A stretch of DNA of 39,607 bases from an uncultured Saprospiraceae bacterium (GTDB taxonomy: Bacteria; Bacteroidota; Bacteroidia; Chitinophagales; Saprospiraceae). A program made the position numbers and the translations under genes. The notes beneath the pieces were generated by a model. That model saw only the letters and a program-made list of their open reading frames with translations, was not told the DNA's origin and did no database searches. Shown one piece after another: positions 1 to 25,900 of the stretch (the first letter of the stretch is position 1; every line of letters starts with the position of its first letter). The stretch lies in the NCBI GenBank assembly GCA_937921555.1, contig CAKZUV010000333.1, positions 1 to 39,607 on the forward strand. Reading direction: 5' to 3'.

Positions 1-1320
1 ATTATTGTTTCTGGTAACTGTCCAGGAAATTATCAAATCATCAGAACCTGGACCGCTACAGATTTCTGCGGAAACGAAGCTACACAGACTCAGAATCTAT
101 TTGTTCAAGATAATACCAATCCAGTTTTTGCCGGTATACCAGAAAACATAAGTGCCTCCTGTGATAATATTCCAGCACCAGCTACCCCAACAGTTACTGA
201 TGACTGTAGTGCAAACGTAAGTATTAATTATACCCAGCAGCGTAATGAGTTAGGTTGCCCAGGAAATTATATTTTAACAAGAATCTGGACGGCAAACGAT
301 GGATGTGGAAATCAAACAGTTGCAACTCAAACAATTACGGTTGAAGATATTACCCCACCGACTCTTTTGCAGGTAGCGACTAATGTAACAATCAATTGTG
401 GTGAAACAGCAATTTTAGTTGATCCAATCGCCAACGATAATTGTGATCCAAATGTGTTTGTAAATTTGAATGAAATTATTATTCCAGGAGAATGTGAATA
501 CAGCTATTCTATTAGAAGAACATGGACAGCCACTGATCATTGCGGCAACGAAGATATCGCTACTCAAATAGTAAACGTAGTTGATAATACCGCTCCTGTT
601 TTAACAGGAGTTCCCAACAACCTGACTATCAGATGTGATGAAACAGCAATTATTCCAATTCCTCCAAGTGTCGGTGCTATGGATGATTGTGATCCGAATC
701 CTACCGTGACATTTTCGGAAGCAACAATAGAAGGCAACTGTGAAGGAAGTTATACCCTACTCCGCAGTTGGACCGCTACCGATGTTTGTGGTAACAGTAG
801 CATTTCCACGCAAAGTATTACGGTGAACGATCAGACTTCTCCTGAAATTAGCAATGCCCCAAGTGACATCACCGTAGAATGTGGCGCTATCCCAACCGCT
901 AACTTGTTAACTGCCACTGATAATTGTTCAGATGTAGTAGTAACCGTTGAAGACGAAAATCAAGGTGGCGTATGTGATGATACTTATATTTTAATCAGAA
1001 CCTGGACAGCTACGGATGCCTGTGGTAATACAGCCACTACAGCTCAGACTATTACCGTTGAAGACACTACAGCACCAATACTGAATGGCGTGCCAGTTAA
1101 TACGACTATAGACGGAAACAATGGTGGTACTGCTCCATCAGTGCCAGACAATATTAATGCAACTGACAATTGTGATTCAGAGGTTGAAATAATTTTCACA
1201 GAAGACACCCAACAAAATGGATGTGGAACTACAATTACCCGAACCTGGACCGCTATTGATAATTGTGGAAATACAGATCAGAAAAGCCAGATAATTACTA
1301 TTTCAGGTGACTTTGATATT
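1..1320 (+). repeat. HYR-like repeats (5 full + 1 partial) in the giant adhesin
   Basis: Six consecutive units of about 78-82 codons, the first cut by the window edge. Most carry four cysteines and the pattern C-x(n)-DNC/DDC-x(n)-GxC-x(n)-RTWTATDxCGN, then TITVxDxTxPxL. This is the HYR-type immunoglobulin fold common in Bacteroidota adhesins. Unit boundaries fall near the xTxPxLxGVPxN junctions. The fifth full unit has lost its first cysteine (TTIDGNNGG where the others have TIxC). More units probably lie upstream of the window. Confidence 0.85.
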
Positions 1321-4300
1321 AGTATTACACCTTCTTCACCCACAATTTGTGAAAATGAAAATATATCCTTTACTGTTATCGCAGAAGAGAATCCTGAAAG
1401 CTATCAATGGTCTGCTAATCATGGAACATTTGATGATCCAACTTCGGCAAATCCAGTTTACATAAGCAATGGTACCGCAAATGTATCGGTGAGTGTTATT
1501 GTAACCACTGCCTCTGGTTGTATTGGTGTGTCCAATACAAGTATTACAATTAATGAAAATCCGACAGTTCAGGCAATTGTCAACAGTCCTCTTTGCGAAG
1601 GTGAAAATATTACTTTGTTTGCCAGTGGAGGTTCATCATACGAGTGGTCAGGGCCCGAGGGAAGTTTACCTAGTATACAGAATCCGGTTATACAAAGTGC
1701 CTCGGTTGAGCAGTCGGGTGACTACTCTGTTACCGTCACTAACAATCAGGGATGTACAACTGTTCAAACGGTCAATGTGCTAGTCACTGATGACCTCAGC
1801 GCAGATTACTCTGTGGTGCACAAGGATTGTGAAAATACAGGTAGTATTATTTTAGGAATCGTAGGAGGTACTGGAAATTATACTTTCAGTTGGAATCCTT
1901 ACCCGGCAGGAGGCCCTACTCCTCAACCACAAAACAGAACTGAATTAAATTCAGGTATTTATACTGTTGTAATTCAGGACGAAGGAGGATGCGAAGTTAC
2001 CATCAACAATATCCTGGTAGAAGACCGCTGTAATAACGGAGCGTGTCCCGTAAATGCTGGAACTATTTCAATAGAAGAAGAGATTATTTGTTTTGAAAAT
2101 AACAGTAATAATATTTCTGCTACTCCGGATGGTAATATGGTTATCAGTCCTGACTTTGAAGTGATTTATTTATTAACTGAACAAAACGGTAATAACCTTA
2201 CCATTGCAGACACCTCTTCTGTTCCTGCATTTAATATTACAGAGACCGGAACCTTTACGATTCATACCGTGGTGTATGATCCTTCCACGCTAGATTTAGG
2301 CTTAATCAATTTTGGTGGCACTTCTATTTTTGAAATAAACAGTCTGCTTCAACAAGGCGGAGGAGATATTTGTGGGGCGTTAGACCTCAACGGTGCGAGT
2401 GCGGAAATCATAGAAATTGAAATAGAAATTGTTTCCAACTACCCTGACAATTGTAATTCTTCTAATGGCAACGTGGTCCTTTCACCAAATAACTTTGTCT
2501 ACCAGTGGAGTGATAACGGCATTGGTGCAACCCGAAATAATCTGGAAGCTGGCATCTATCAAATTACCGCATCTGATAACAATGGTTGTACAAATATTAT
2601 CGATCTGGAAATCAGAGACACTTGTATTTGTATTGAACCAGTAATTACAAATATTAATACCATCGAATCCAGCTGTGGATTTCAAAATGGCAGCGGAGAA
2701 ATAATCGTAGATGGTAATCCGTTAGACTATACCTTCGAATGGTCCACCAGTGCAGGTACTCCCAACAACGTTGGTAACAAAAGATCCAACCTCCAGGCTG
2801 GCGTTTATACTGTAACTATTGGATTTTCCGCAGTAACAAATTGTGAAATTACGGAAACTTTTTCTATTGGAAATATTGACGGGCCTAAGGTAGATTCTGT
2901 TTCTACAACTCCAGCTACCTGTAGTGCACCCGATGGTTCGGTAATTTTGTATCCTGATACTTACGACTACATCTGGGTAACCAACGATAATGCTACCACT
3001 AACAACAGAAGTGACCTTAAACCTGGCCGGCACAGTATTGTAGTTGTCAATCCACTGGCGCCTCAATGTCCGGATATTATTACCATAGAAATTGATTCCG
3101 TCAATACCACACAAATTTCGGTTGATATTATCTCCGAACCTCAATGTGGCATCCTCAATGGTGAAGTTTCCGTTACCGTCGCAAACAGTCCTGCCAGTAA
3201 TTTTAATTATATCTGGAGCGATGATCCATCTGTAAACCAGGCTAACCGTACAGGACTTGGACAAGGGGATTATACGGTAACAGTAACAGATCAGGGTGCT
3301 ACCGCCTGCGAGACTGTTTTTGACTTCACGCTAAACGAACAAGCAGTAGGGGCCTCTCTCATAATGGACTCGATTGTAACTATTGATTGTTATGGAGAGC
3401 GGGGGGAACTGTTCTACGATATAACTTACGCTAATAGCTTCGTACAACCCGCTGGTATTTTTATTACCAACGAACAAAATGCACCTTTCGACGCCGACAA
3501 CCTGATTGCCGGAGATTATACAATTGAGGTAGAAGATGCAAATGGTTGCCGTGGGGCAATTGAAAACTTCACAGTTACAGAATCCGAAGAACTGGTTGCA
3601 GTAACTACCATCACGGATATTGAGTGTACAACTCCCGGCCAGATTAATCTCACCGTCAATGGAGGATGCGGAACATTCACTTATGACTGGGGACACCTTC
3701 CGGGAACAGATGATCCACAAAATATAACCACTAACAACGAAGGTGTCTATATTGTTACCATAACGGATTGTAGTGGCTGTGAAAAAGTACTGTTCGGTCA
3801 ATACGTTGGAAATAATTGTGATAATGATAGTTGTCCTCCGGATCCAAGCGTTAATAATATCGTAGTTCAGGATGCCGACTGTGGACAAAACAATGGATCT
3901 ATTCTCCTGCAAGTGAGTGGAGGCACTCCGGATGATTTTATCTATGTATGGAACCCTGATGTCAGTACTACCAACAATGCCAACAACCTTAGTTCAGGTA
4001 TTTACGATGTGACTATCCGCCACGCAAATGACCCTTCCTGCCCACCCGTCACTCAAACTGTAGAGGTCAGCAATATTGATGGTCCGGAAGCGGTCGTAGT
4101 GTTCAGTGCTCCCGCTGGATGTACCAGCGCAGACGGATTTATTGTTTTATCACCTACTTCGTACCAGTATTTGTGGGAAGATGGAATCACAGGTTACAAC
4201 CGGAATGATCTGCTAAAAGGACCGCACAACATTACAGTTACTGATCCTGTTACTGGATGTACAAATACCATGATCGTCATCGTTGAGGAAGAAAATGATC

Positions 4301-7300
4301 TCGCTGCGGATATCAATATCGTAAGTGAACCTACCTGTGGTCAAGCCAACGGTAGCGCAACCATTAACGTTATGGATGGTAGTGGATTTTACGATTACAT
4401 TGGCTGGGGCAGCAGCACTTCCCGCAATGATCTGGAGGCTGGACCTTACGAAGTAACAGTGGCAGACAGAATTTCAGGATGCGAAACAATTATCAGTTTT
4501 ATTTTACAAGATAATGTTGCAGATGCAATTATCAGTATTGATCCACAGATAATAGTTTCCTGCCCGGGAGCATCCGACGGCACCGTCATTTATACGATAG
4601 AAACAGCGCCTGGATTTGTGGGACCAGAAGAAGTATTCATTACAAGGGACAATAATAATTTTTCCAACGGAACACTTACCACTGGCAACTATTGTATTGA
4701 AGTAAGGGATGCCAATGGGTGCCTCGCCGGAACTGATTGTTTTGAGGTTACAGAACCAGATCCAGTCAATACTGCTTTTTCTGTTATTCATAAAGATTGT
4801 GATAATAATGGAAATGAAATTCTGGGCAGTATCAATCTGGAAATTACCGGTGGTACCGGCAGCTATTCATTTAACTGGGAACATCTTGGTTCAGGTGACG
4901 ATCCACAAAATGTTGTTAACCTGCAGGACGCGACTTACGCGGTAACAATAACGGATGAAAATGGTTGCAGTACTACCATCAGAGATATAATCATCGCAGA
5001 TAATTGTGTTCCTTGTTCCGCACCTGTTGTTTCCGGTGTTACAACTACCGATGCAACTTGTGGTGACAATAACGGGGCAGTCATTCTGCAGATTACAGGT
5101 GATCCGAATATATATACTTACGAGTGGTCGCCTGCTGTTTTAAATAATGGAAATAGTGCAGACAATCTGAACGCCGGATCATACAACGTCACCATTTCCG
5201 AACCTGATTGTAATGAAACCACTACCGTGAGTTTTAATATCACTAATACTGACGGACCAATCGCCAGTATAGTAGATACAACCCCGGCTAATTGTGATGC
5301 GAATGACGGTTCTGCTATCCTGTCACCTGCTAATTACGAATACGATTGGGGACCTTCATTCGGTACTGGTGCGACTAAGAATAATCTACCGACCGGTAGC
5401 TATATTATTACAGTTACAGAACCTGGTAATATTTGTGTGAATACCATCGAGGTGACCATTGGACAGGAAAGTCCATTACTGGCAGATCACCAGATAGTTG
5501 CTCAGCCTAATTGTGGACAGGCCGACGGACAGGTGAATATTTCCGTAGAGAATGCGGCCGCCCCCGTGACTTACAACTGGAGTAATGGCTCCACCGGAGC
5601 GCTACAAAATGATTTGGCGGCCGGATCTTATACCATTACCATTACCGATCAGAATAATTGTATCACAGAAACAAATTTTGTCCTTACGGATAATATTCCC
5701 GCAGCAACCATTACTATCAATTCGATTACTGATAATACTTGCACCGGAAGCAATGACGGACAGGTGGACTATGACGTAGAATATGCGAATGGGTTTACAG
5801 AACCCGCTAACATTGAAATCTATAAAAATGAAATTGAACAAATAAATGGTCAGTTAGGTGCCGGTGAACATTGTATTATCATTACAGATAACAACAATTG
5901 TCTCGCTGGTGAAACTTGCTTTACCATTGTTGATCCACCCGCTATTGATGTAACAGTTGTTACTTCCGACGGAAATTGTGATAATGGAGGCACCATTGAT
6001 TTGATTGTTGTTGGTGGAACCGGAAACTACACTTACAATTGGTCCGGAAACGGTACAAATAATAATTCAGAGGATCAGACAGACCTAACTGAAGGAAGCT
6101 ATATTGTAACCATTACAGATGCTAATAATTGTAAAATTATTACTAATGAAATAAACATTCAAACGGATTGTCCGGCTTGTGCAGACCCCATCATCGTCGG
6201 CTCCGAAATCCGGGAAGCAACCTGTGGCGATGCCAATGGTAGTATTCAACTGACCATTTCCGGTAACGTAGCAGACTATACTTTCAGTTGGTCTAATGAC
6301 CCTGATAATAATAGTGCAACTAATAGCAATTTGGGAACTGACACGTATACCGTAACGATCACAAACACTGTTTGCCCGGCTACGCTAACCGAGTCTTTTA
6401 TTCTTACAAATATTGACGGACCAATGGCGACCGTTAATAATCTTACCGCTGCTTCTTGTAATACGGCCAGCGACGGAACTGCCACCCTGCTACCGGCCAA
6501 CTATATTTATAATTGGTCAGCAGGAACGGCTAACGGAAATACACAGACTGATCTGGCAGCTGGTCCTTATCAGGTTACCATTATTGATCCGGCCACGGGT
6601 TGTGACAATGTAATTAATGTAGAAATTCCGGAAGAAAATAATCTAACAATAGATATCCTGATTACCAGCCAACCTACCTGTAATCAATCTAATGGCGCCA
6701 TAGACATTCAGGTTACGGGAGGTAGTGGAAACTACAGCTATTCCACCGGACAGGCCATCAGAACTGATTTGCCACGTGGTGTTTATACGCCCGTCGTGAC
6801 AGATATAACGACAGGTTGTACCGCAGCGGCAACGGTTACTTTGACTGATGATGTAGCTGGAGCCACCGTTGAAGTAGATCCCGAATTTTCTTTATCCTGC
6901 CTCGGGGCAAATGACGGTACCGTAATCTTTAACATTATTGAAGAAAATGGATTTGTCACACCACGACGGGAGGAAATTATACGTACGGACGACCAGACCA
7001 TTCACCAGAATGGACAATTAATGCCTGGTAACTATTGTATCAATGTTTACGATGCGAACGACTGTCTGGCTGGCAACGGATGCTTTACGATAATCAGTCC
7101 TGCGCCGTTAAATGTTAGCAGCCAGATCAGCGACGCAGACTGTACTCAGCAAGGAAATATCAACCTGACAGTCAGCGGTGGTACCGCCCCTTACACCTAT
7201 AATTGGTCCGGCACCAGCGCTACTAACAATCAGGTAAATGTAAACGCCGAAACCTATACGGTTACCATATCGGATGCCAATAATTGCACAATGGTATTGA

Positions 7301-10300
7301 CAGGATTAGTGGTAGAGGATAATTGTGTCACCTGTAATGAACCACAAATTACCGGTGCTATAATTACCGATGCCAATTGTAATGAAAACAACGGTAGTAT
7401 CTCCATCAGTATAGCTGGTGACGTGGCGGATTACATCTTTAACTGGACACCTGCTAGTTCTGGCAACAGTCCAAATCCAACAAATCTAATAGCAGGAGAT
7501 TACACAGTGACCATCACTGAAAATACTGCTGGTTGCGAGAATGTTACAACGGTTAGAACCTTTATCGTAGGAAACACTGACGGCCCCGAAGCACTGATTG
7601 ATAATATAACTAACGAAGATTGTGGTCAGGCTAATGGTAGTGCTTCTCTGATACCTGCTAATTATACTTTTGAATGGGGCGCTTCCATTGGCACCGGAGC
7701 AGTTCAGAATAACCTCACAGCCGGTACTTATACCGTCACCGTCATCGAACCGGGTAATCCTTGTACGAACGTTTTAGAGGTTGCGATCGGTAGTAACAGT
7801 GACCTGACAGCTACTGCGACAGTCGACCAAAATGCCACCTGCGGCAATAGTGATGGTGCAGCAACTATTAATGTTAGTAATGGTAGTGGAAATTATACGT
7901 ACAGCTGGAATGGTGGAAGTAATCGCAGTGATCTGCCTGCAGACTGTTATGATATATTGGTTACAGACAATGAAACAGGTTGTAGCACCGACGTATCATT
8001 CTGTGTTACAGATGACGTAGCTGGTGCAGAAATAATTATTGCACCCAATACTTCCGTAAGTTGTGCGGGTGCAAATGATGGCACGATCGATTTTGATATC
8101 ATTTACGAAAATGATTTCGCAAACCCTGCGGTTATTTTAATTAAAGACCCTGCCGGAAATGTGCATAACAATGGTCATCTATTGGCTGGAATCTGGTGTG
8201 TGGAGGTGGTTGACGCCAACGGCTGTTTAGCGGCAGTAACTTGTACAGAAGTTACCGAACCAACCGCCATGAATCTGACCATTGGAATTGTCAACGCAGA
8301 TTGTACAACTTCTGGCACCATCGAAGTATCTGCTACCGGAGGTACCGGATTGCTCATTTACAACTGGGCAGATGTATCTGGAGCTGACAACCCTGCTGAT
8401 CGAACAAACCTCAATCCGGGTGTATATAATCTGACGGTTACCGATCAGAATGGTTGTACCGTTGTTCCCGCTCCCATTACCATAAGTAACGAATGCCCCA
8501 CCGGGTGCTCGCCTTTTGAAATTATCAGCGAAGTCATTGTCAACGCCACCTGTAATCAATCCAACGGTTCTGTTGTTTTGGATGTGACGGGTGAAGAATC
8601 TGATTTTGTTTACACCTGGCCGAACAATATCAGTAACGACCATACGGCCTCTGATTTATCCGCTGCTACTTATACTGTAACCATTACTGCGGTTGCTGAT
8701 CCCGACTGCGAAATTCTTCATACAGTTGTTATCGAAAATGAAGATGGTCCGGAAGCGGAAGTAATCAGTCAGTCTCCAACCACCTGCGAGTCAACCGACG
8801 GAGGAGTTACATTATCTCCGGCCAGTTACCTGTACATCTGGAGCGACGGAGGAAGCGGCGCGGTCAGAAATGACCTGGACAACATTGCCTATTTTATTAC
8901 AGCAGTAGATAACATAACTGGCTGCCAGAATATTATTGAAATAACTATCGAAGACATCAATCCACTGGCGAGTAGCGTCACGATTGACACCCTGCCCACC
9001 TGTGGTCTGGCCAACGGGATGGTAACCATCAATGTAACTGGCGGTAGCGGTGATTATAGTTTTGGTAACACTCAGAATCTTCCATCCGGTCCAAATGAAG
9101 TTATCATTATTGATAACGTTACAGGTTGCGAAACAATTGCTAATTTTGTATTGGAAGATAACGTCGCCAATGCTACCGTAACCGTCGATCCTGTTATTTT
9201 ACTGGATTGTACCGGAGATCAAAATGGTAGCATCGATTATGACATCGAATTATCAGCTGGTTTTGTCAGTCCCGAACGGATAGAAATATTAGATGAAAAT
9301 AATTTCACAGTTAATAATGGTGAATTAGGTACCGGCGATTATTGTATCATTGTTTATGATAATAACAACTGCGTAGCCGGTCAGGCCTGTACCCGAATTT
9401 CCGAACCAACAGCCATTGAGATAACCGTTTCCGCGCAGCATGCTACTTGCAGCGAAGCAGGAAGTATCGATTTAACTTTGTCAGGTGGAACAGCGCCTTA
9501 CCAGGTGGATTGGGCGGATGTTGCTGGCTTGAATAATCCGGAAGATCGCAGTGGACTCGCAGCGGCATCTTACATGGCTACCATTACAGATGCAAATGGT
9601 TGTACGGCAGTTATTCCGTCTACGACAATTGAAACTTCCTGTGAGCCTTGCCCTACTCCACCAGTAATCGTTAGTATTCTAACCATCGGTTCTGATTGCG
9701 AAACTAATAACGGGTCAGCCGAAATTCAAATGGATGGAAACATCAGTGATTATACCTTTACCTGGTCTGCCCCCGCTATTAGTTCTTCTTCAGAAGCTAC
9801 TGATTTAGCTCCCGGAGCTTATACGGTAACCGTAGTCAATACTAATGATATATCCTGTTTTAGTGAACAGAATTTTATTATTGAAAATAAAGAAGCTCCC
9901 GCTGAAATAGTTGTCAGTCAGCAACCGGCAACCTGTACTTCCCCGAATGGTAGCGTCAATCTCGAACCAGCAAATTACGATTATACCTGGCCCGATAATA
10001 CCATAGCTGCCAACCGTACTGATCTGGCAGCAGGTACTTATTTCGTAACCGTTTCAGCAGCTAACAATGACTGTGAAAATGTCATCGAAATAACGGTAGA
10101 TGAAATTAGTAATTTAGGGGTAGCTCATACCATTGTCGTACCACCGACCTGCGGAGAAGCCAACGGTGAGGTAAGATTCAACTATATGAATGGTAGCGGT
10201 CAGTACACCTTCGAACCGAATATCACTGATAATACCATGACCGGTTTAGTAGCCGGAAATTATCAGTTACTGGTTACGGATGTTGCGACGGGCTGTGATA

Positions 10301-13300
10301 CCCTCTACGAGTTTAGTCTGACGGATGAAGTTGTAAATGCGGTCGTAAATATTGCATCCGCACCACAAGTTTCCTGCATTGGAGAAAGTGACGCTACGGT
10401 AATCTTTGACATTGATTATAATCCTGGTTTTGTTCAACCAGTTGCGATTCGAATTTTACAGGACAGCACAGAAATATCTAACGGAAATCTGGGAACAGGA
10501 AATTACTGTCTGGAAGTAAGAGACGCAAATAATTGTATAGCGGCGGTGGAATGTTTCAATGTAACAGAACCCGCTCCTCTGAATACAGCCCTTATTCTAA
10601 ACAATGAAACTTGCAATACGCAGGGTAGCATCGAATTAACCGTCACTGGCGGAACTGCTCCTTACACCTACAACTGGAGTAACGGAAATGATACACCCAA
10701 CTTATCCAATTTAAATAGTGGATTTTATAGTATTACAATTACAGATGCCAATGACTGCGAAACTATTCTGACAGAGCTGATCATCAGCGACGAATGTACT
10801 CCTTGTGATAATCCAGTCATTGCCAGCACCATTATCACCGAGGCTACCTGCGGTGAACAAAACGGAACTATCCGAATTGAAATGGAACCCGGCGATTACT
10901 TATTCAACTGGAATCCAAATTTAAGTACTACCAATGAGATTAATAACCTGGAGGCAGGTACAGTTACCGTAACCGTAACCAACGCCAGCGATGCTACTTG
11001 TTTTACTACTGAAACAATTATAGTCGGCAACAACGATGGTCCGCAGGTATCCATTCTCAGCACCATAGCCGCAACTTGTACCGCCCCCGATGGTGAAGCC
11101 ACTTTAAGTCCTGATACTTATATGTACGAATGGAATGACGGTGAAAACGGAAACACCAGAAATAATTTATCGGCAGCGGAAAGTCCTTACATTGTTACAG
11201 TAACAGACCCAATCACTAATTGTATTGACATTGTTACAATAGAAATAGATGCCGAAAATACGTTAACCGCCGAAGCCATTATCAATAATCTACCGGATTG
11301 TGATAACAACAACGGATCGGTAACGATCGTACCAGAGGGTGGAAGTGGCAACTATACTTACGGCAACTGGTCAACCCCTTCCCGTACAGACTTGACGGCA
11401 GATTCTGTTTATAATCTAATAATAGCGGATACGGAAACCGGATGTACCTTCCCGGTTAATTTTATACTGGCAGCCGATAATTCCGACATTTCGCTAACGC
11501 TGAACAACTCAACAATAGCGCTGGATTGTACCGGTGAAGAAAATGGGTTCATTGGTTTTACAGTAGCTTACAGTCCCGATTTTGCGCAACCCGCCGATAC
11601 CATTATCCAAATGGCAGATGGTACAGGGATTGCTACAAACGGTAACCTGGCCGCCGGAACGTATTGCCTGTTGATCCGGGATGCAAATAACTGCTTAGCC
11701 GCAGAAAGTTGCTTTATCGTCACCGCTCCGTCACCGTTAGAAGTGGATGCCCAGCTAGCTAACTTAACTTGTGATCAAACTGGCAGCATTGATCTGATCA
11801 TTACCGGAGGATCTACTCCTTATACATTTGACTGGGAAGATCTGCCTGCTGGTAATAATCCGGAAGACCGAACCGATTTAACGGAAGATATTTACAATGT
11901 AACGGTCACAGATGCCAATGGTTGTATAACGATACTGTCCGGATTAACCGTCGAAAATACTTGTAACCCTTGCATCGCCAGTGATATTATTATTCAAAAT
12001 ATCAATACTACTGATGCCAACTGCGGACAACAGAATGGTAGTGCAACGATCAGCCTGGCGGGGGACGAATCTGAATATGATTTCGAATATTTCCCAACGC
12101 TTAGCAACGGGCATATCCAAAATGGCCTGATGGGCGGAGACTATAGCGTAACGATCACTCATCAAACGGATACAGATTGTGTAAATCCAGTGGTAACTAC
12201 CTTTACCATCGGCAACGTGGAAGGTCCGGAGACAATTGTAGTTAGTAATATTCCGGAAAGCTGTACCGCCGCAAATGGTCAGGTGACGCTGAGTCCCGAT
12301 ACTTTGATTTATCAATGGAGCGATGGTGGAACAGGCGCAGAACGTCTGAATCTGATCGCGGGGACTTATCAGATTACGATCTCTGAAGCAAATACTATCT
12401 GTGATAATTTTATGGAGGTTATCGTAGAAAATAACTCGGACCTGATAGCAAACGGTATGGTTATTTCAGAACCGGACTGCGATCTTAACAATGGATCAGC
12501 GACTATTTCAATTACTAATGGAAGTGGAAATTATACTTTTAATAATAACTGGGGAAATGATCCCACCCGTACCGATCTGGGTGCCGGAACGTATCCCGTC
12601 ACGGTTACCGATACACAAACAGGATGTACGGCTGCCGTTCTTATAAATATTGAAAATGCAGTTCCAAAAGCGAATATTACCATCAATGGAACAGTCGTTA
12701 CTACTTGCAGCAATAATGCGGATGGAAATGTAAATTACGATATTACGACCGATCCGGGATATCATGGTAATCCAACCGTAACAATCGAGGATACACTCGG
12801 CAATATCTATCTGAACGGTACGCTCTCCTTCGGAGATTTCTGTCTGATCGCCCGTGACAGTAACCAGTGCATCACTGCGCAGGAATGCTTTACGGTAGTT
12901 ACGCCCAATCCAATCCTGGCAACTTTTACAGCCAGTAATCAGACTTGCGATACTACCGGAAATATAATGCTCTCCGTAAGCGGAGGTACGGAACCTTATC
13001 AGTTTGACTGGGAAGATCTTACCATCGGTACAGAACCACAAAACCGGAACAACCTGAACGGAGGCATCTACACCGTTACCATCAGCGACGCTGCGGGTTG
13101 TACTGAAATAATTTCGACGATTATCGTTGAAAATGAATGCTCAGCATGTGCTGTTAATACCAGCATCACAACGACCGAACCGGACTGCGGACAAGACAAT
13201 GGTGTAATCGATATCAATTCTTTGGGTGGCAATTATAACTACCAGTGGAATAATAATGCAACCACCAATCGTATAAACAACCTGGCAGCCGGAACGTATC

Positions 13301-16300
13301 AGGTAACCATCAGCGAAAGAAATGATGCTAGTTGTTTTGTTGTAGAAACTATTACGCTCAGCAATCCGAACGCTCCACAGGCAACCGTAGCGTCTATTGC
13401 GCCTGCAACTTGTCAGCTAGCAAACGGTGCTGCTACCCTGAGTCCAACCACAAATTTTTATACCTGGACGGACAATGCAGGAAACGATTTCGGCAATGGA
13501 TTTACGAAAGATGATTTACCGGCAGGCACCTATTTTGTAACCGTAGCTTCTGGCAGTACAAGCTGTATTGAAATAATGACTATAGAAATTCCGGAAAACA
13601 ATCCGTTAATTGCCACGGCAACACTTACCAGTCTTCCATCGTGCGGAGAAAATAACGGAACGGTAACTATCCAGGTAGAAGGTGGCAGCGGAGATTATCG
13701 GTACGATTTGGGTCCGGTCATCGAAAATTTATCATCCGGGACGTACACAGATAACATTCTGGATCAGATCACCGGATGTCGAACCAACGTAGTATTTACG
13801 CTGACGGATGATGTACCGGCGGGAGCGACCATTGATGTTGACCCGAGCTTTGAACTGGCCTGTGCCGGAGACGCTAACGGATCAGTGCTGTACAATGTAA
13901 CTTATGAACCAGGTTTCATCACACCAGCAGATATTACTTTCATAGATGGCGATAATAATCCGGTCAACAATGGCAGCCTGAGTTCCGGAACATACTGTAT
14001 CATCGTCAGAGATGGTAATGGATGCCTGGCGGGAGAACGTTGCTTTGACGTTACCGATCCGGAAGAAATGATCCTGGCCATCAGCGTGACCAACGAAACG
14101 TGTGATGCGGCCGGAACGATTAATGCAATTCCTGCGGGTGGTACTCCTGGTTATATTTATACCTGGGGTGATACGAATTTAACAACGGCAGAAAGAGATG
14201 ACTTAACGAGCGGAATTTATCAATTGACCATTACCGACGCTAACGGTTGTCAGGCGGTCTTTGACAGCCTGATTGTTACGGACGAATGTACCGTCACCGA
14301 CTGTGACAACTTACTGGTCACCAGTGTAGTAACTACCGATGCAAACTGTAGTGATGAAAATGGTAGTGCAGCCATCAATATTGCAGGAATTGAATCAGAC
14401 TATCATTTTGCCTGGTCTAATGGTGCTACCGGCAGTAGTATTTCTGATCTGGCCGGAGGAATTTATCAGGTAAGTATTTCTGATCCTTCGGATAATGGCT
14501 GCGATACTATACGGAGTACAATCATTATAGGAAATTCTAACGGACCGGATGTAACCATCGTAGATACTACGCCGGCAACTTGTCCGGACAACGATGGAAC
14601 GGCTTTATTAAGTCCGGATTCAATAAATTACGATTGGATGCTGAACGGAAATCTCGCTGCTACCGGCGCCAGTCAGAACAATTTAGCCTCAGGAGAATAT
14701 CAGGTGATTGCTACCGATAATAGTGGATGTTCTCAGATACTTTTGGTCACCATTGGTCAAAATACGACCTTACTGGCTTCGGTCCAGATTCTGAGGCCGG
14801 CCGATTGTGGTATGGCCAACGGTTCTGCCCGTATAACAGTGAATAATGGAAGTGGAGATTACAGTATTCCGGAATGGGGAACCAACCTGACCCGAGATGA
14901 TTTGCCAGCAGGTTCGTACGAAATTGAAATTACCGATAATATAACAGGATGTAACACCTCGTTATTCTTTTCTATCCAGAATGATATTCCGGAAGCAATC
15001 ATTACCATTAATGAAATCATCCCGGTTTCTTGCTTGGGAAGTACAGATGGTACGATTGATTATAGTCTGGAACTGAGTCCTGGATTTGCAGGAAGCGGAA
15101 CGGCAGTGATTACCGACGACGAGGGAATCGAATACCAGGAAAATAATCTATCACCGGGTGATTATTGTATAGTGATCCTTGATGACAACGATTGTATAGC
15201 GGGCGAGTCCTGTTTTACAATTACGTCTCCGGAAATTATGGATATTAATCTGGCCTCTGTAAACGGAGATTGTAATCAGTCGGGCGCCATTTCAATTGGC
15301 GTGACGGGTGGCAATAGTCCGTATACGTTTGACTGGTCAGACTTACCCGGCAGCGATAATGTACAAAGCAGAAATAATCTGACTGCCGGAATTTACGAAC
15401 TGACCATTTCCGATACAAATGGCTGTACCGTAGAAACGGGGGCCATTACTATAAATAACAGTTGTATCACAACTGACACTATTTACGTAAGTACGCCTTT
15501 TGAATCTCCTGCGGACACGATTTGTCTGGACCTCAGTGAAATCGGATCGGATATTAGCAGGATTGTACTTTGCGAAGCACCCGACTTTGGTACGCTGACA
15601 CCGATCAGTGATTCATGTCTGGTCTATACGCCGAATCTATCGTTTAGCGGAGCAGATACGGCCTGCGTAATTATTTGTAACAATGAGGCCATTTGTGACA
15701 CTACCATTGTTATCATCAACACAGGAAATCCCGCACCGTGTCCGGGAGACCTATTTACGGATGTGGATACGGCAATTGTTGTCAGTAGTGACTGTACTGT
15801 GGGCGGTGAATTATGTCTTGGAATTCCGTTCTTCCAGATTGACAGATATTCCATCACTGATAACGGAAATGATTACCTGAGTGCCACCTTCGGTTGTGCA
15901 ATTGACAGCGTAATCAATTATTCTACCTTTACTTTCCCCGGTGGTGGAAACGTCGGAACTTACAGACTGGAAAACTGGAGCTTGAACAGCGAAATTTACC
16001 AGACCCGTTTTACAAGCATTCCGGAACTTGTGGACTCTATGAATATCTGGGATACTACTTCTAACTGGTTTTATGATGCCAGCCAGGAAATTATCGGTGG
16101 TGGAAACACCGCCAATGATTATGGCAATCTGAATATACGTCAAGAGACCACCAACGCATTTACCGTTGTCAATGTAAATACTAGTCAAGTTCCAACGGGT
16201 ACAAATTTACCGTTGACTGCTGGTTTCCACGAATTGGTTTTCACACATAATACTACCCGCTGCGTCGATACGGTATGGGCCAATGTCTACTGTGTGACTA

Positions 16301-17118
16301 CGGATTATGTGACAGATACCCTGGATGTGAACGAAACAGAAGTAATTTGTCTGGATTTGAGCGAGTTAACAGGATCGGTTGTCAGTGTTGAAAACAACTG
16401 TGAAAATAGTTCGGGTGAAATGGTGGTATATCAAATAGACGAAGAGGCGGTCTGCGTGAACGTCAGCAGTTTTGAAGAAGGTACCGAAGAGGCTTGTATA
16501 GTGGTTTGTGATGATACGGGAATTTGCGATACAACTTATTTCCAGATTACGGTCATTGAAAATCTGGCAGATATAATTCCTCCGGTGGCCGTCGAAGACC
16601 GGGCTAATACCACTGCTAATAATGCAGTAGATATTGGGCAATTAGTGAACGATACGATCAATGGCCGGCTGGATACCATTATTCTGATTACGCAACCACA
16701 AAATGGTATAGTCGGTATCAACGAAGATCAAACGATCAAATATACACCCGATACAGATTATTGTGATCCTGATAATCCGGATGTTTTCAGTTACGTTATC
16801 TGTAACCAAACGGGATGTGACAGTACCGAAATTTATGTAACCGTATTATGTAATGATCTCCTTATCTTTAATGGTTTTAGTCCGAATAATGACGGTGTAA
16901 ACGATTTCTTTACCATTCAGGGAATCGAGTCATTTCCTAATAATCATCTGCTGATCTTCAATCGGTGGGGTAATGAAGTGTATAGCAGAGAAGGATATTT
17001 AAACGACTGGGACGGAAGCTGGAACAAAAACAAAATACTACCAGATGGCACCTATTTCTACGTGCTGGACGACGGTGAAGGGAATAGATATTCCGGCTAC
17101 ATTCAGATAAACAGGTAA
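1..17118 (+). CDS. Giant SprB/HYR-repeat surface adhesin with class-B T9SS tail (5'-truncated)
   Basis: Frame 1 is open from the first base to TAA at 17116-17118, giving at least 5705 residues. The first start-like codon (TTG at 367) lies inside a repeat, so the true start is upstream of the window. Order of domains: one partial and five full HYR-like repeats (residues 1-440; each has the signature RTWTATDxCGN followed by TITVxDxTxP); two Ig/PKD-like domains (about 440-600); a leading SprB-type stretch; eleven copies of a five-module SprB-type block (about 880-5155); a unique region (about 5160-5520) that includes a domain rich in Trp/Tyr; a cadherin/Big_9-like domain with PPVAVEDRANTT and IKYTPDTDY (about 5525-5615); and a CHU_C / gliding-motility-type C-terminal domain (about 5620-5705) with FSPNNDGVND, FNRWGNEVY and LPDGTYFYVL. 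CHU_C domains direct class-B T9SS export, so this is probably a cell-surface filament used in adhesion or gliding, like SprB. No sprF-like gene follows it directly. Confidence 0.95.
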   Translation: MIVSGNCPGNYQIIRTWTATDFCGNEATQTQNLFVQDNTNPVFAGIPENISASCDNIPAPATPTVTDDCSANVSINYTQQRNELGCPGNYILTRIWTANDGCGNQTVATQTITVEDITPPTLLQVATNVTINCGETAILVDPIANDNCDPNVFVNLNEIIIPGECEYSYSIRRTWTATDHCGNEDIATQIVNVVDNTAPVLTGVPNNLTIRCDETAIIPIPPSVGAMDDCDPNPTVTFSEATIEGNCEGSYTLLRSWTATDVCGNSSISTQSITVNDQTSPEISNAPSDITVECGAIPTANLLTATDNCSDVVVTVEDENQGGVCDDTYILIRTWTATDACGNTATTAQTITVEDTTAPILNGVPVNTTIDGNNGGTAPSVPDNINATDNCDSEVEIIFTEDTQQNGCGTTITRTWTAIDNCGNTDQKSQIITISGDFDISITPSSPTICENENISFTVIAEENPESYQWSANHGTFDDPTSANPVYISNGTANVSVSVIVTTASGCIGVSNTSITINENPTVQAIVNSPLCEGENITLFASGGSSYEWSGPEGSLPSIQNPVIQSASVEQSGDYSVTVTNNQGCTTVQTVNVLVTDDLSADYSVVHKDCENTGSIILGIVGGTGNYTFSWNPYPAGGPTPQPQNRTELNSGIYTVVIQDEGGCEVTINNILVEDRCNNGACPVNAGTISIEEEIICFENNSNNISATPDGNMVISPDFEVIYLLTEQNGNNLTIADTSSVPAFNITETGTFTIHTVVYDPSTLDLGLINFGGTSIFEINSLLQQGGGDICGALDLNGASAEIIEIEIEIVSNYPDNCNSSNGNVVLSPNNFVYQWSDNGIGATRNNLEAGIYQITASDNNGCTNIIDLEIRDTCICIEPVITNINTIESSCGFQNGSGEIIVDGNPLDYTFEWSTSAGTPNNVGNKRSNLQAGVYTVTIGFSAVTNCEITETFSIGNIDGPKVDSVSTTPATCSAPDGSVILYPDTYDYIWVTNDNATTNNRSDLKPGRHSIVVVNPLAPQCPDIITIEIDSVNTTQISVDIISEPQCGILNGEVSVTVANSPASNFNYIWSDDPSVNQANRTGLGQGDYTVTVTDQGATACETVFDFTLNEQAVGASLIMDSIVTIDCYGERGELFYDITYANSFVQPAGIFITNEQNAPFDADNLIAGDYTIEVEDANGCRGAIENFTVTESEELVAVTTITDIECTTPGQINLTVNGGCGTFTYDWGHLPGTDDPQNITTNNEGVYIVTITDCSGCEKVLFGQYVGNNCDNDSCPPDPSVNNIVVQDADCGQNNGSILLQVSGGTPDDFIYVWNPDVSTTNNANNLSSGIYDVTIRHANDPSCPPVTQTVEVSNIDGPEAVVVFSAPAGCTSADGFIVLSPTSYQYLWEDGITGYNRNDLLKGPHNITVTDPVTGCTNTMIVIVEEENDLAADINIVSEPTCGQANGSATINVMDGSGFYDYIGWGSSTSRNDLEAGPYEVTVADRISGCETIISFILQDNVADAIISIDPQIIVSCPGASDGTVIYTIETAPGFVGPEEVFITRDNNNFSNGTLTTGNYCIEVRDANGCLAGTDCFEVTEPDPVNTAFSVIHKDCDNNGNEILGSINLEITGGTGSYSFNWEHLGSGDDPQNVVNLQDATYAVTITDENGCSTTIRDIIIADNCVPCSAPVVSGVTTTDATCGDNNGAVILQITGDPNIYTYEWSPAVLNNGNSADNLNAGSYNVTISEPDCNETTTVSFNITNTDGPIASIVDTTPANCDANDGSAILSPANYEYDWGPSFGTGATKNNLPTGSYIITVTEPGNICVNTIEVTIGQESPLLADHQIVAQPNCGQADGQVNISVENAAAPVTYNWSNGSTGALQNDLAAGSYTITITDQNNCITETNFVLTDNIPAATITINSITDNTCTGSNDGQVDYDVEYANGFTEPANIEIYKNEIEQINGQLGAGEHCIIITDNNNCLAGETCFTIVDPPAIDVTVVTSDGNCDNGGTIDLIVVGGTGNYTYNWSGNGTNNNSEDQTDLTEGSYIVTITDANNCKIITNEINIQTDCPACADPIIVGSEIREATCGDANGSIQLTISGNVADYTFSWSNDPDNNSATNSNLGTDTYTVTITNTVCPATLTESFILTNIDGPMATVNNLTAASCNTASDGTATLLPANYIYNWSAGTANGNTQTDLAAGPYQVTIIDPATGCDNVINVEIPEENNLTIDILITSQPTCNQSNGAIDIQVTGGSGNYSYSTGQAIRTDLPRGVYTPVVTDITTGCTAAATVTLTDDVAGATVEVDPEFSLSCLGANDGTVIFNIIEENGFVTPRREEIIRTDDQTIHQNGQLMPGNYCINVYDANDCLAGNGCFTIISPAPLNVSSQISDADCTQQGNINLTVSGGTAPYTYNWSGTSATNNQVNVNAETYTVTISDANNCTMVLTGLVVEDNCVTCNEPQITGAIITDANCNENNGSISISIAGDVADYIFNWTPASSGNSPNPTNLIAGDYTVTITENTAGCENVTTVRTFIVGNTDGPEALIDNITNEDCGQANGSASLIPANYTFEWGASIGTGAVQNNLTAGTYTVTVIEPGNPCTNVLEVAIGSNSDLTATATVDQNATCGNSDGAATINVSNGSGNYTYSWNGGSNRSDLPADCYDILVTDNETGCSTDVSFCVTDDVAGAEIIIAPNTSVSCAGANDGTIDFDIIYENDFANPAVILIKDPAGNVHNNGHLLAGIWCVEVVDANGCLAAVTCTEVTEPTAMNLTIGIVNADCTTSGTIEVSATGGTGLLIYNWADVSGADNPADRTNLNPGVYNLTVTDQNGCTVVPAPITISNECPTGCSPFEIISEVIVNATCNQSNGSVVLDVTGEESDFVYTWPNNISNDHTASDLSAATYTVTITAVADPDCEILHTVVIENEDGPEAEVISQSPTTCESTDGGVTLSPASYLYIWSDGGSGAVRNDLDNIAYFITAVDNITGCQNIIEITIEDINPLASSVTIDTLPTCGLANGMVTINVTGGSGDYSFGNTQNLPSGPNEVIIIDNVTGCETIANFVLEDNVANATVTVDPVILLDCTGDQNGSIDYDIELSAGFVSPERIEILDENNFTVNNGELGTGDYCIIVYDNNNCVAGQACTRISEPTAIEITVSAQHATCSEAGSIDLTLSGGTAPYQVDWADVAGLNNPEDRSGLAAASYMATITDANGCTAVIPSTTIETSCEPCPTPPVIVSILTIGSDCETNNGSAEIQMDGNISDYTFTWSAPAISSSSEATDLAPGAYTVTVVNTNDISCFSEQNFIIENKEAPAEIVVSQQPATCTSPNGSVNLEPANYDYTWPDNTIAANRTDLAAGTYFVTVSAANNDCENVIEITVDEISNLGVAHTIVVPPTCGEANGEVRFNYMNGSGQYTFEPNITDNTMTGLVAGNYQLLVTDVATGCDTLYEFSLTDEVVNAVVNIASAPQVSCIGESDATVIFDIDYNPGFVQPVAIRILQDSTEISNGNLGTGNYCLEVRDANNCIAAVECFNVTEPAPLNTALILNNETCNTQGSIELTVTGGTAPYTYNWSNGNDTPNLSNLNSGFYSITITDANDCETILTELIISDECTPCDNPVIASTIITEATCGEQNGTIRIEMEPGDYLFNWNPNLSTTNEINNLEAGTVTVTVTNASDATCFTTETIIVGNNDGPQVSILSTIAATCTAPDGEATLSPDTYMYEWNDGENGNTRNNLSAAESPYIVTVTDPITNCIDIVTIEIDAENTLTAEAIINNLPDCDNNNGSVTIVPEGGSGNYTYGNWSTPSRTDLTADSVYNLIIADTETGCTFPVNFILAADNSDISLTLNNSTIALDCTGEENGFIGFTVAYSPDFAQPADTIIQMADGTGIATNGNLAAGTYCLLIRDANNCLAAESCFIVTAPSPLEVDAQLANLTCDQTGSIDLIITGGSTPYTFDWEDLPAGNNPEDRTDLTEDIYNVTVTDANGCITILSGLTVENTCNPCIASDIIIQNINTTDANCGQQNGSATISLAGDESEYDFEYFPTLSNGHIQNGLMGGDYSVTITHQTDTDCVNPVVTTFTIGNVEGPETIVVSNIPESCTAANGQVTLSPDTLIYQWSDGGTGAERLNLIAGTYQITISEANTICDNFMEVIVENNSDLIANGMVISEPDCDLNNGSATISITNGSGNYTFNNNWGNDPTRTDLGAGTYPVTVTDTQTGCTAAVLINIENAVPKANITINGTVVTTCSNNADGNVNYDITTDPGYHGNPTVTIEDTLGNIYLNGTLSFGDFCLIARDSNQCITAQECFTVVTPNPILATFTASNQTCDTTGNIMLSVSGGTEPYQFDWEDLTIGTEPQNRNNLNGGIYTVTISDAAGCTEIISTIIVENECSACAVNTSITTTEPDCGQDNGVIDINSLGGNYNYQWNNNATTNRINNLAAGTYQVTISERNDASCFVVETITLSNPNAPQATVASIAPATCQLANGAATLSPTTNFYTWTDNAGNDFGNGFTKDDLPAGTYFVTVASGSTSCIEIMTIEIPENNPLIATATLTSLPSCGENNGTVTIQVEGGSGDYRYDLGPVIENLSSGTYTDNILDQITGCRTNVVFTLTDDVPAGATIDVDPSFELACAGDANGSVLYNVTYEPGFITPADITFIDGDNNPVNNGSLSSGTYCIIVRDGNGCLAGERCFDVTDPEEMILAISVTNETCDAAGTINAIPAGGTPGYIYTWGDTNLTTAERDDLTSGIYQLTITDANGCQAVFDSLIVTDECTVTDCDNLLVTSVVTTDANCSDENGSAAINIAGIESDYHFAWSNGATGSSISDLAGGIYQVSISDPSDNGCDTIRSTIIIGNSNGPDVTIVDTTPATCPDNDGTALLSPDSINYDWMLNGNLAATGASQNNLASGEYQVIATDNSGCSQILLVTIGQNTTLLASVQILRPADCGMANGSARITVNNGSGDYSIPEWGTNLTRDDLPAGSYEIEITDNITGCNTSLFFSIQNDIPEAIITINEIIPVSCLGSTDGTIDYSLELSPGFAGSGTAVITDDEGIEYQENNLSPGDYCIVILDDNDCIAGESCFTITSPEIMDINLASVNGDCNQSGAISIGVTGGNSPYTFDWSDLPGSDNVQSRNNLTAGIYELTISDTNGCTVETGAITINNSCITTDTIYVSTPFESPADTICLDLSEIGSDISRIVLCEAPDFGTLTPISDSCLVYTPNLSFSGADTACVIICNNEAICDTTIVIINTGNPAPCPGDLFTDVDTAIVVSSDCTVGGELCLGIPFFQIDRYSITDNGNDYLSATFGCAIDSVINYSTFTFPGGGNVGTYRLENWSLNSEIYQTRFTSIPELVDSMNIWDTTSNWFYDASQEIIGGGNTANDYGNLNIRQETTNAFTVVNVNTSQVPTGTNLPLTAGFHELVFTHNTTRCVDTVWANVYCVTTDYVTDTLDVNETEVICLDLSELTGSVVSVENNCENSSGEMVVYQIDEEAVCVNVSSFEEGTEEACIVVCDDTGICDTTYFQITVIENLADIIPPVAVEDRANTTANNAVDIGQLVNDTINGRLDTIILITQPQNGIVGINEDQTIKYTPDTDYCDPDNPDVFSYVICNQTGCDSTEIYVTVLCNDLLIFNGFSPNNDGVNDFFTIQGIESFPNNHLLIFNRWGNEVYSREGYLNDWDGSWNKNKILPDGTYFYVLDDGEGNRYSGYIQINR
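2638..15465 (+). repeat. Eleven-copy higher-order repeat, five SprB-like modules per copy
   Basis: Copies begin at about 2638, 3841, 5020, 6181, 7339, 8515, 9658, 10810, 11980, 13150 and 14311, a period of 1143-1203 bp (381-401 codons). Each copy has five modules in fixed order. (a) TDATCGxNNGS ... DYTFxW ... ending NxDGP. (b) TPATCxxxDGSAxLSPANYxYxW ... CxNxIEVTI. (c) xPTCGxANGSATIxVxxGSGxY ... DxxTGC. (d) VSCxGxxDGTVxYDI ... GFVxPA ... GxYCIxVxDANxCLAGxxCF. (e) CxxxGSIxLTVxGGTAPYTYNW ... TVTITDANGC, then a CxPC-type linker. All follow the SprB beta-sandwich pattern (xDGxxxLxVxGG, NLxAGxYTVTxTD). Copies are clearly diverged from one another, so the array looks old rather than freshly amplified. 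Confidence 0.9.
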
Positions 17119-20609: not shown

Positions 20610-20665
20610 ATTCAACATTTCAACATTTCAACATTTCAACAATTCAACATTTCAACATTTCAAAA
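20610..20665 (+). repeat. Octanucleotide tandem repeat (WTTCAACA)n abutting a start codon
   Basis: Seven 8-bp units: ATTCAACA, TTTCAACA x3, ATTCAACA, TTTCAACA and a final TTTCAAAA. They run without a gap into the ATG at 20666. The same word occurs singly just upstream (20593-20600). The array replaces the normal leader and ribosome-binding region of the HAD phosphatase gene. Confidence 0.85.
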
Positions 20666-22950: not shown

Positions 22951-25900
22951 CTATTGTTTAATAATCCGCCCCCGAAAGGTTTGGTTGTCTATATTCAACC
23001 GATAGAAATAAGTACCGGCAGCGGGAAAATGATGGCCTGAAACGCTCATCTTTTGTAACCCGGACGCGAAGTTTTCATCTTGTCTCAAAATTGCTTTACC
23101 AGTCAGATCATAAATTTCTAAGGAAACGGCAGAAGCGCCTGATAGTTCAAAAGTAAAAAGAGTTTGCTGATTAAAAGGATTAGGATACAGTTTTGGCGCA
23201 CGCTGGTCAAAACTTTTAATATCTGTCACTACCCCATCAGTAAACGCCCATTGAATGCTTTGTGCTGTTTGCTGCTCGTTATAAAGCAGCTGTCGCCCGT
23301 CGGGGCTTACAAAATTAATGACCTCACTGATCTTTTCTAAATCGGTGTGCACCAAAAACTGAAAATTCATCAATTCCATTTCCGGGGTAATCTTCCGTGC
23401 CTGATTCCCGACTTCCTCCGTGTACCACAAGAATTTCAGCCGTCCCTCTTCTTCCTGAAAACCAGTAACGCCGGTGACTTGCTGAAGTTCCAGATGCGCC
23501 GGATCAAAATTTATCATTGCCTCAAAACCCAGAATTTTTTCTTCCACCAGCATCCGGACCGGAATATTAATTATTTCTCCGGCAGTCGCCGCCCGGTCTT
23601 CTATTTGCCAGAGGCTGTTCTCACTACCCGTCAATGCAGGATTATTACTGTCGTTGGTATCCCCAATTTTCACCCCGATAAAATCAGCATTCAAATAATC
23701 AGTATTTAAATCATTGACGGTAATGGATTGTGGATAATTGTAATTCAGAGCTTGCGATCCGTAGTCAAAAGTATAGTCCGCCGGAAAAAATTCCCACGAA
23801 GTATTTTGTGGAAACTCATTAGTAATTTCAAGCACTATTTCCTGCATTTGTAATAAATCAAAAACCGAAACATTTCCACTCCGGTTAACGTCCGCCGCAA
23901 TGTACTCAGAAGCGGTACTAAAAGTATCGATGAGCAATAAATGCGAACGTATTCTGATAATATCAATTACCGTTACTCCGTTCCGGTGATTAATATCCTT
24001 AGTGGGGGTTATCTGATAGTTTTCTCCTTGTGGCAATCCGGTAAATAAAAAATCTCCGGAAGGATTATTTAGGAGATCAGATTCGTTGGTGCAAGATACC
24101 GTCACCTGACCAATGTCTATTCCGTCGGTACGATGAATCTGCCCGCCAATCGAATAATCATTTAAAGGCAATACAATCTCGATGATTTCACAAATCTCTT
24201 CGCTGCCACAATCGTTGGTCGCCGTCAGACATAACATATAAATTCCGGATTCGGTGTATTGGTGGTTAATGGTTTCTTCAATACTGCTTCCTCCATCTCC
24301 GAAATTCCACATTAAACCGTTGGCGCCCACCGCGGTACTCTGTGCGGTCAGCTGACTATCGGTTAATTCAAAAGTGAAACTGCTCACCGGATTCGTACCG
24401 TTATTACCGAGGATAACTTCCACGGTATTACTACAGTTATTAGCATCCGTAACGGTTACCTGATAAGTGCCCGCCAATAAATCATTGAACTCGTTGGTAT
24501 TGACCCGACCCGTTCCCAGATCGAATTCGTAAGGAGCAGCTCCTCCGGCGACATCCAGCGAAAATCCGGCGACGCCATCGTTACAGCTATCATCTGTTTG
24601 CTGGATGATACTGACTTCGGGTAAACCCGTATCTTCCAGATTTACCATTAATTCCTGCGAACATCCTTCCACGTCGGTGGCAACGACCAGATAGCTGCCC
24701 ATTGGCAAATTATTGAAACTGGTTTGATCTACTGGATTTCCGTTCAGGGTATATTCAAACGGCGCAGTACCGCCAGATATAGTAATAGAAAACGCACCGC
24801 TCTCATTACCACAGCTCGGATGAATCACCTCAGCTGCCATTAAACTAACGGGAGGCGTATCACCAATAACGGCGTTGAGTTGGGTCGAACAATTATTGGC
24901 ATCTCTAATTCCAATGGTATAAATCCCGGTTCCTAAATTATTAAAACTACCATTGTTTTGTTCTGCGCCATCAATACTGTAAACAAAAGGCGCCGTGCCT
25001 CCGCCGGCCACGACAATCAGCGAACCGTTGTCTGTTCCGCAGGTAGCACTGTTTAGTTGAGAAATAGCAATAATGGGAGGATTTGAATCTGCCAGCGTCA
25101 CCGTCACTACATCCGAACATCCGTTGACATCCATAACGGTCACTTCGTAAGTACCCGCAAAAAGATTATTGAAAACCGGCGACCCGGTCGTTGCTCCATT
25201 TGTGGTGTAGAGATACGGCCCCTGACCTCCGGCTACAGAAAGTGTAAAACTTCCGTTAGCGTCATTACAGGTCGCATCCTCCTGTGCAAGCACCGAGAGC
25301 TCGGGAGCAGACGTTTCCAGAATAGAAAAGCTTATTTCATCAGTACAATTATTGACATCAGACACGGTAACTGTATAATTTCCAGGACTCAAGTTTGCCA
25401 AGTTAGGATTGTCAAAATTCTGTCCGTTGTAACTAAACGTAAAAGGGAGCATTCCTCCGGAAACGGTCAGGTCAGCGGTACCATTGTCTTGTCCACAGGT
25501 AGCCATCGTTAGTTGAGCAACCGAAAGATTCGGCGGATTTGTATCCGACAGCGTGACGGAAATCACATCGGAACAATTATTCGCATCTGTCACGGACACC
25601 TCATAAGTTCCGGCAGTCAGATTACTAAAAACGAGTGACTCGGTGACCGTTCCGTTGATGGCAAAAGTAAAAGGAGCCTGACCTCCGGCAAGTGAAATGG
25701 TAAAATTTCCGTTGGCATTATTACAACTTGCATCGTTTTGTGAGGCTACGGATAGTACGGTGGCTGGATTTTCAGCAATTGTGAAACTAACCTCAGCGGT
25801 ACAATTATTTCCATCGGTTACGATGACCGAATAATCACCGACGCTTAAATTCTCCAGGTTTGGATTATTCGTATTTTGACCATTGTAAGAAAAAATAAAA

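Follow-up and report, generated by a model that had tools for sequence, protein, structure and literature searches.

Layout of the giant gene

The window, i.e. the complete stretch of 39607 nucleotides analyzed here, represents the first bases of contig C333 (CAKZUV010000333.1) from the genome of an uncultured Saprospiraceae bacterium (GCA_937921555.1). This genome is designated G000, relatives are given as genome:contig, and contigs named alone belong to G000. The contig begins inside a gene for a giant protein with an array of SprB-type repeat modules, in the following the W gene and the W protein; its 5' end is cut and the N-terminus is lost. Frame +1 is open from the first base of the window to a stop codon at 17116-17118 and comprises 5705 codons.

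The succession of features is compiled in Table 1. The eleven-block array is preceded by a partial forerunner outside its borders, which consists of one e-like module (e0), a different domain and one b-like module (b0). The same layout of Ig-like part, e0, spacer, b0, array, tail and sorting domain is common to the W protein and its long relatives, and the spacer domain exhibits blastp identities of 61% to the paralogue on contig C30, 46% to G216, 38% to G188 and 34% to G099. The C-terminal tail is 65-69% identical to the tails of relatives within the genus.

Table 1. Features of the W gene in the window (HMM, hidden Markov model; Ig, immunoglobulin; T9SS, type IX secretion system)
Feature	Position	Strand	Evidence or remark
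HYR-type repeats (HYR_4C), N-terminal part of open frame	1..1302	+	HYR_4C 109.9 bits (cut-off 27)
Ig-like region preceding the array	1318..1794	+	Ig_7 and Ig_2 matches near or below cut-off
e-like module e0 of the partial forerunner	1795..2031	+	module HMM scan; block profile 1711-2031 aligns with profile positions 283-387
Non-SprB spacer domain between e0 and b0	2032..2418	+	blastp; kept in long relatives
b-like module b0 directly before block 1	2419..2619	+	module HMM scan; block profile 2422-2619
Array, eleven blocks of modules a-b-c-d-e	2629..15465	+	block HMM, alignment, module HMMs, tree
Block 1	2629..3819	+	most divergent in the array (31-38% to other blocks)
Block 2	3820..5007	+
Block 3	5008..6171	+
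Block 4	6172..7326	+	a module with shifted cysteine
Block 5	7327..8496	+
Block 6	8497..9642	+
Block 7	9643..10797	+	structure predicted jointly with module a of block 8
Block 8	10798..11964	+
Block 9	11965..13140	+
Block 10	13141..14289	+
Block 11	14290..15465	+	counterpart in G001:C37 is one a/e hybrid module
C-terminal tail between array and sorting domain	15466..16845	+	Big_9 49.4 bits (cut-off 23.6)
T9SS type B C-terminal sorting domain	16846..17115	+	TIGR04131 55.9 bits (cut-off 35), reaches the last residue; CHU_C 99.4 bits (cut-off 27)

Eleven blocks of five module types

An iterated block HMM that was started from one block detected eleven full-length consecutive blocks at amino acids 877-5155 of the frame +1 open reading frame. 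As cut for alignment, they are 382-397 amino acids (1146-1191 nt) long, and every block is divisible into five modules of 67-89 amino acids each, here termed a to e. The best offsets of an ungapped self-comparison are located near 388, 775 and 1157 residues. The original prediction for this DNA had described eleven ordered five-module blocks of the SprB type, 55 modules in all, at 2638-15465 and with a period of about 1.14-1.2 kb; this architecture is recovered, with a start at 2629. The SprB repeat profile PF13573 scores 55.3 bits on block 7 (cut-off 28), but only seven places of the array are among the 150 matches listed in the genome scan, thus indicating that Pfam recognizes only part of the 55 modules.

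The blocks are highly diverged, with pairwise identities of 31-43% within the array, and nevertheless each module retains its type. When the module HMMs were rebuilt without the tested block, with module borders taken from the alignment of all eleven blocks, all 55 modules were assigned to their own type, with margins of 44.5 bits in the median and 5.6 bits at the minimum (c of block 1). The maximum-likelihood tree of the 55 modules, which rests on few columns (77) according to a warning of the tool, requires four type changes, the minimum possible for five types, versus 50 changes of block number. Module types b, c, d and e each represent one side of a starred branch, and type a does not (two changes of its own), but a constraint that keeps all a modules together was not rejected (p-AU 0.49). 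Mean identity amounts to 38.4% for the 275 pairs within types and to 27.2% for the 1210 pairs between types, and the nearest neighbor by raw identity is a module of the same type in 51 of 55 cases and a module of the same block in none. Type d is the outlier, with four cysteines and 21-25% identity to the other types. When six preceding residues are included in the count, ten blocks contain 15 cysteines and one contains 17. The grouping by type before copy number documents that block-wise duplication founded the array, as had been proposed; neither clustering by neighbor nor a period broken in several copies, the two outcomes named beforehand as speaking against it, was seen.

At the DNA level, a tandem repeat scan with a longest period of 500 reported no repeat of the block period, and the longest exact repeat within the array is 17 nt, compared with 13-14 nt in ten codon shuffles. 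Since the copies share at most 17 nt exactly, a collapse or inflation of the window array by the assembly is unlikely and was rejected, whereas such an artefact may affect arrays like that of G216.

An ancient array in two paralogues

Proteins with at least two full blocks are encoded elsewhere in G000 on contigs C30 (eleven blocks), C145 (four), C203 (two) and C129 (two). The comparison of W with C30 revealed a strict collinearity, in that block k is the best match of block k in all eleven cases, with 49-61% identity on the diagonal and 28-42% off it. The same positional correspondence was found for all ten comparable blocks of W versus G001:C37 and of W versus G004:C701, in which block 11 is absent or cut. 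In the FastTree phylogeny of 125 blocks, each of the eleven positions forms one clade that comprises both paralogues and the sister species (local support 98-100, five to seven rows each); a warning of the tool concerns the long branches by which block 1 of G216 joins position 1. A conspicuous marker is located in the a module of block 4, where a ten-residue run with a displaced cysteine (VTITNTVCPA) is identical in all seven copies compared, from both paralogues. Collinearity and positional clades show that the eleven blocks existed prior to the duplication into the W and C30 genes and that each block has descended separately ever since.

Both paralogues co-occur in three genomes (G000, G001, G004). 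All five arrays that could be read to both ends and have suffered no loss, namely, W, C30, G001:C90, G002:C387 and G005:C227, harbor eleven blocks, and the comparisons show no block exchanged or added in them since the duplication; contig ends truncate three others (G004:C701, G004:C432, G006:C477). The sole length change seen inside the genus is that of G001:C37, whose array consists of ten blocks followed by a single hybrid module in the place of block 11 that starts as a and finishes as e. This corresponds to an in-register loss of four modules, by which the phase was kept. The longest exact repeat is 17-24 nt in six arrays of the genus with ten or eleven blocks, compared with 95 nt in G216, 53 nt in G188 and 29 nt in G099.

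Distribution and re-amplification in Saprospiraceae

Hits of the block profile at E<=1e-60 occur in 68 of 298 genomes sampled from the family and in 31 of 112 genera (60 genomes at E<=1e-90), a loose count as it is based on the profile alone with six candidates scored per genome. At the same threshold, three of 395 genomes in a phylum-wide sample were found; all are labelled as members of the same family, and one is G000 itself. G028, from another family of the same order, exhibits a profile match in a separate sample (E 1.3e-71), yet without an ABCDE run.

Among 36 proteins that were selected for a strong profile match and read module by module, 33 contain at least one ABCDE run, their number ranging from 1 to 16; the module HMM scan found none in G021:C126, G015:C11 and G028:C33. 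The order is broken in G111, G165, G183 and G021:C126, which show stretches like ABAB or AAA, or numerous E modules. Twenty proteins from other genera contain 100 ABCDE blocks, and 498 of the 500 modules therein are clearly typed by at least 8 bits, a figure that covers blocks already found as ABCDE runs and hence tests the types and not the order.

The number of blocks among the long relatives differs between lineages, with 11 in the genus of the window, 16 in G216 and 7 each in G188 and G099. In the sixteen-block array of G216:C104 the inner copies are near-identical (91% for blocks 9 and 10) and the outer ones divergent, which looks as though growth occurs in the middle of the array. The 13-block array of G054:C41 provides a second example: its blocks 2-5 recur as blocks 6-9 with 69-73% identity, a pattern that appears to be a single duplication of four blocks (20 modules). 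The W blocks are only 28-46% identical to any block of G216, G188 or G054:C41, whose own blocks are more alike, thus indicating an independent re-amplification or homogenization in other genera, in the form of whole blocks. The block is a Saprospiraceae cassette.

A survey of the open-licence literature, with subscription papers and preprints mostly outside its scope, retrieved no report of a five-module block or of block-wise conservation for the giant proteins of Saprospiraceae. New here are the eleven-block paralogue with its positional clades, the family-wide cassette and the in-register loss in one sister species.

Selection and module order

The ratio of nonsynonymous to synonymous substitution rates (dN/dS) is 0.077-0.141 over all five module types for W versus G001:C37 and for C30 versus G001:C90, with a synonymous divergence (dS) of 1.4-1.8 that is near saturation; only these two comparisons are usable, as dS has reached saturation in the comparison of the two paralogues with each other and, for several types, in that with G004. 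The ratios show, within this limit, that all five module types are under purifying selection. They also bear on the view that the array is a neutral by-product, i.e. the remnant of an old, decayed amplification whose block has no function as a unit. Such a decay would be in agreement with same-type identity not falling with distance along the array, apart from lower values for pairs nine to ten blocks apart, which involve the divergent block 1. It was rejected on the dN/dS values, and the intact frame and the preservation of eleven blocks in both paralogues likewise render it highly improbable.

The order of the modules requires a separate consideration. The original prediction had stated that the signature of each type is kept over all copies and that module identity is under selection. 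The purifying selection on all five types, which are recognizable even in other genera, supports this claim in part, but the strict order needs no selection of its own: recombination pairs like with like, and in-register exchange between like modules preserves the phase, in keeping with the in-register loss in G001:C37. It is conceivable, although doubtful, that the order itself is selected because each type makes a contact that recurs every five modules, either in a banded filament or as one binding site per block, comparable to titin on the thick filament. The conservation of type signatures beyond the genus, the purifying selection and the largely constant order in genera with unequal block numbers would all agree with this proposal. 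Yet in-register recombination alone suffices, and the four relatives with broken order listed above deviate from it.

Predicted structure and the relatives of the block

Block 7 and the subsequent a module were folded with an alignment of 59 rows (window and relatives). The prediction shows beta-strands throughout with a mean predicted local distance difference test (pLDDT) value of 91.6 and a predicted template modelling score (pTM) of 0.47, and in this model each module is an Ig-like domain. With so low a global score, the filament with a helical or banded repeat of five domains that the original prediction had deduced is at most conjectural. Fragments of grappling hook protein A (GhpA) from Aureispira sp. 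CCB-QB1, a member of the same family Saprospiraceae, head both fold searches: 9flw is the top match in Foldseek (E 9.6e-17, TM-score 0.26/0.24) and in VIA (Z 8.7, root-mean-square deviation [rmsd] 53 Å), and the Ig strings of titin and NCAM follow closely behind (NCAM fragments Z 8.2). For the two best GhpA entries the TM-score is 0.24-0.29 at an rmsd of 53 Å, so that the superposition is limited to single domains.

GhpA is also the nearest solved protein to the block profile by sequence (35 bits, E 5.6e-8). The Ig-like region preceding the array is the part of the W protein that is closest to it (phmmer; matching stretches mostly at query 440-600), and for the pre-array region the score adds up to 403 bits over 22 stretches. 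The C-terminal part from block 10 to the end has no relative in the PDB at E 0.1, and the five-module block was not found as such in GhpA. Matches of the Ig-like region of W to GhpA chain 9flp_A recur about every 249 residues (e.g. at 1828, 2076, 2326 and 2573), which suggests a three-module super-repeat in GhpA. Other PDB matches of the block profile (9occ, 5lxk, 8zvi, 4jrw, 2y72) are weak and were taken as general Ig-like resemblance, and so was the low-scoring match of an NCBIfam type A tail model within block 7.

GhpA thus shares with the W protein its giant size and Ig-like modules, and it offers an alternative model for the function of the array, in which identical chains lie side by side and their Ig-like modules form a multi-chain cable that catches prey or surfaces. 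The PDB holds 56 chains in eight GhpA entries, seven per entry, and the grappling hook is described as heptameric in a review (PMC11205867). The close match of the pre-array region, the leading position of GhpA in both fold searches and its own periodicity would fit such a cable. However, the agreement is confined to single domains, NCAM scores similarly in VIA, the C-terminal part lacks a solved relative and the block was not recognized in GhpA; we therefore consider a GhpA-like cable quite unlikely.

A probable stalk of a giant surface protein

The best explanation, to which we assign a probability of roughly 0.7, is that the array represents the stalk of a giant protein which the T9SS exports and which stays bound to the cell surface, and that the array has grown blockwise, was duplicated and then became frozen. 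Its anatomy, its descent and the purifying selection acting on it are documented by the comparisons above; the role as stalk of a surface adhesin is the most likely reading of these data, and the sorting domain points to export. The ancestral array would have grown by unequal recombination between whole blocks, a process that seems to continue in the arrays of other genera. With protein identity between the blocks down to about 37% and no exact repeat longer than 17-24 nt, recombination would have run out of substrate and the array would have frozen, so that every block, and likewise every one of the 55 modules, probably now evolves independently and under purifying selection. An Ig-like module spans about 4 nm, and the array could accordingly form a membrane-near rod of roughly 200 nm. 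The C-terminal domain would anchor the protein at the outer membrane via a shuttle of the PorP/SprF type whose gene lies elsewhere, and the N-terminal part with its many HYR repeats may be carried outwards to bind surfaces, neighbors or prey.

Several observations weigh against this explanation. The signal peptide and the tip of the W protein lie beyond the start of the contig and are unseen, the pTM of 0.47 does not fix the shape of the rod, and the four-module loss in G001:C37 rests on one draft genome. Some arrays with longer exact repeats of 20-35 nt also look largely diverged, and freezing is thus linked to repeat length only by a correlation among the 16 arrays compared. No PorP/SprF gene adjoins the W gene; the only one on the contig (34899-35849, match 34908-35795) is located seven or more genes away. 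Finally, the GldJ-like protein of G000 scores 366.8 bits, under the curated cut-off of 458.2, as is also the case in two of 14 control genomes, and gliding is therefore not established.

The missing neighbor contrasts with the shorter block genes of G000, as one PorP/SprF gene follows the four-block gene on C145 at a distance of about 0.2 kb and another precedes the two-block gene on C203 by about 2.5 kb. The genome encodes 21 matches to the PorP/SprF family and a full-length SprA (2318 bits). With its sorting domain, the PF13573 repeats and a genome that provides translocon and shuttles, the W protein can be placed among the T9SS type B surface proteins with SprB repeats. In Flavobacterium johnsoniae, the shuttle gene adjoins nine of twelve type B substrates, and the three orphans share one shuttle (PMC12618676). 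The sorting domain of W shares 80% identity with its C30 counterpart and 63% with the one of C145; taken together with the orphans of F. johnsoniae, a shared PorP/SprF shuttle is likely for the W protein.

The comparison with F. johnsoniae SprB was made via its published description (PMC9870892, PMC12618676). The W protein resembles the giant SprB-type adhesins in its PF13573 repeats, type B sorting domain, very large size and presumable surface location, and it differs in the ordered five-module block present in eleven copies, the preserved identity of each block and the lack of a neighboring sprF. It might thus be a gliding adhesin that works like SprB of F. johnsoniae, a filamentous adhesin of 6497 residues (PMC9870892), and is moved by the T9SS motor. 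SprB repeats above the Pfam cut-off, the type B sorting domain and the presence of SprA would be in line with gliding, and so would the GldJ-like gene, which is directly preceded by a PorP/SprF-family gene (G000:C299:15234-17727). The absence of sprF next to the W gene and the large number of other SprB-repeat proteins in G000, with at least 150 PF13573 matches on over 30 contigs, make this role unlikely.

A stalk that has grown blockwise finds a parallel in building logic outside the bacteria. The super-repeat unit in the C-zone of the muscle protein titin comprises eleven domains, Ig and fibronectin type III (FnIII), and is longer than the block of the W protein; titin is moreover intracellular. 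The unit is present in the A-band in eleven copies (C1-C11), and modules at the same place are more alike than neighbors (PMC10665226). Ig-superfamily-type modules, eleven super-repeat copies and a likeness predicted by place are therefore common to both proteins. The central repeats of titin are most alike, whereas no such center is seen in the W array. This likeness concerns the building logic, for which kinship is not claimed, and shows that the same logic has been reached outside animals.

The repeat arrays of bacterial surface proteins are usually thought to be labile and homogenized by recombination. The family of the W protein shows one cassette in several states, namely, short (one to four blocks), actively amplifying (sixteen blocks, copies 91% identical) and frozen (eleven blocks, conserved by position), and the frozen state spans a gene duplication and several species. 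Two questions thereby become testable in a single protein family: by what route giant modular fibres grow before they lock, and whether the number of blocks sets the length of the fibre. A more speculative and rather improbable extension is a molecular ruler as the bacterial equivalent of the titin super-repeat, in which the 55 individually inherited Ig-like modules with their eleven blocks would serve as a length gauge and the two collinear paralogues of equal length would pair in register as a two-chain fibre.

Neighboring genes in the window

Downstream of the W gene, a second SprB-repeat protein of 1517 amino acids is encoded on the minus strand (22951-27504); it harbors a PKD domain and a type A sorting domain, and a dockerin-type match is just above the cut-off. 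A leucine-rich-repeat protein of 2119 amino acids with a T9SS type B sorting domain is located at 28062-34421. Its gene and the PorP/SprF-type gene of the contig are convergent on opposite strands, unlike the usual downstream order. An 8-base repeat, TTCAACAT, is present in 6.6 copies with 95% matches at 20611-20663 and stops three bases before the ATG (20666) of a HAD-type hydrolase gene, whose expression could be switched by slippage of the repeat.

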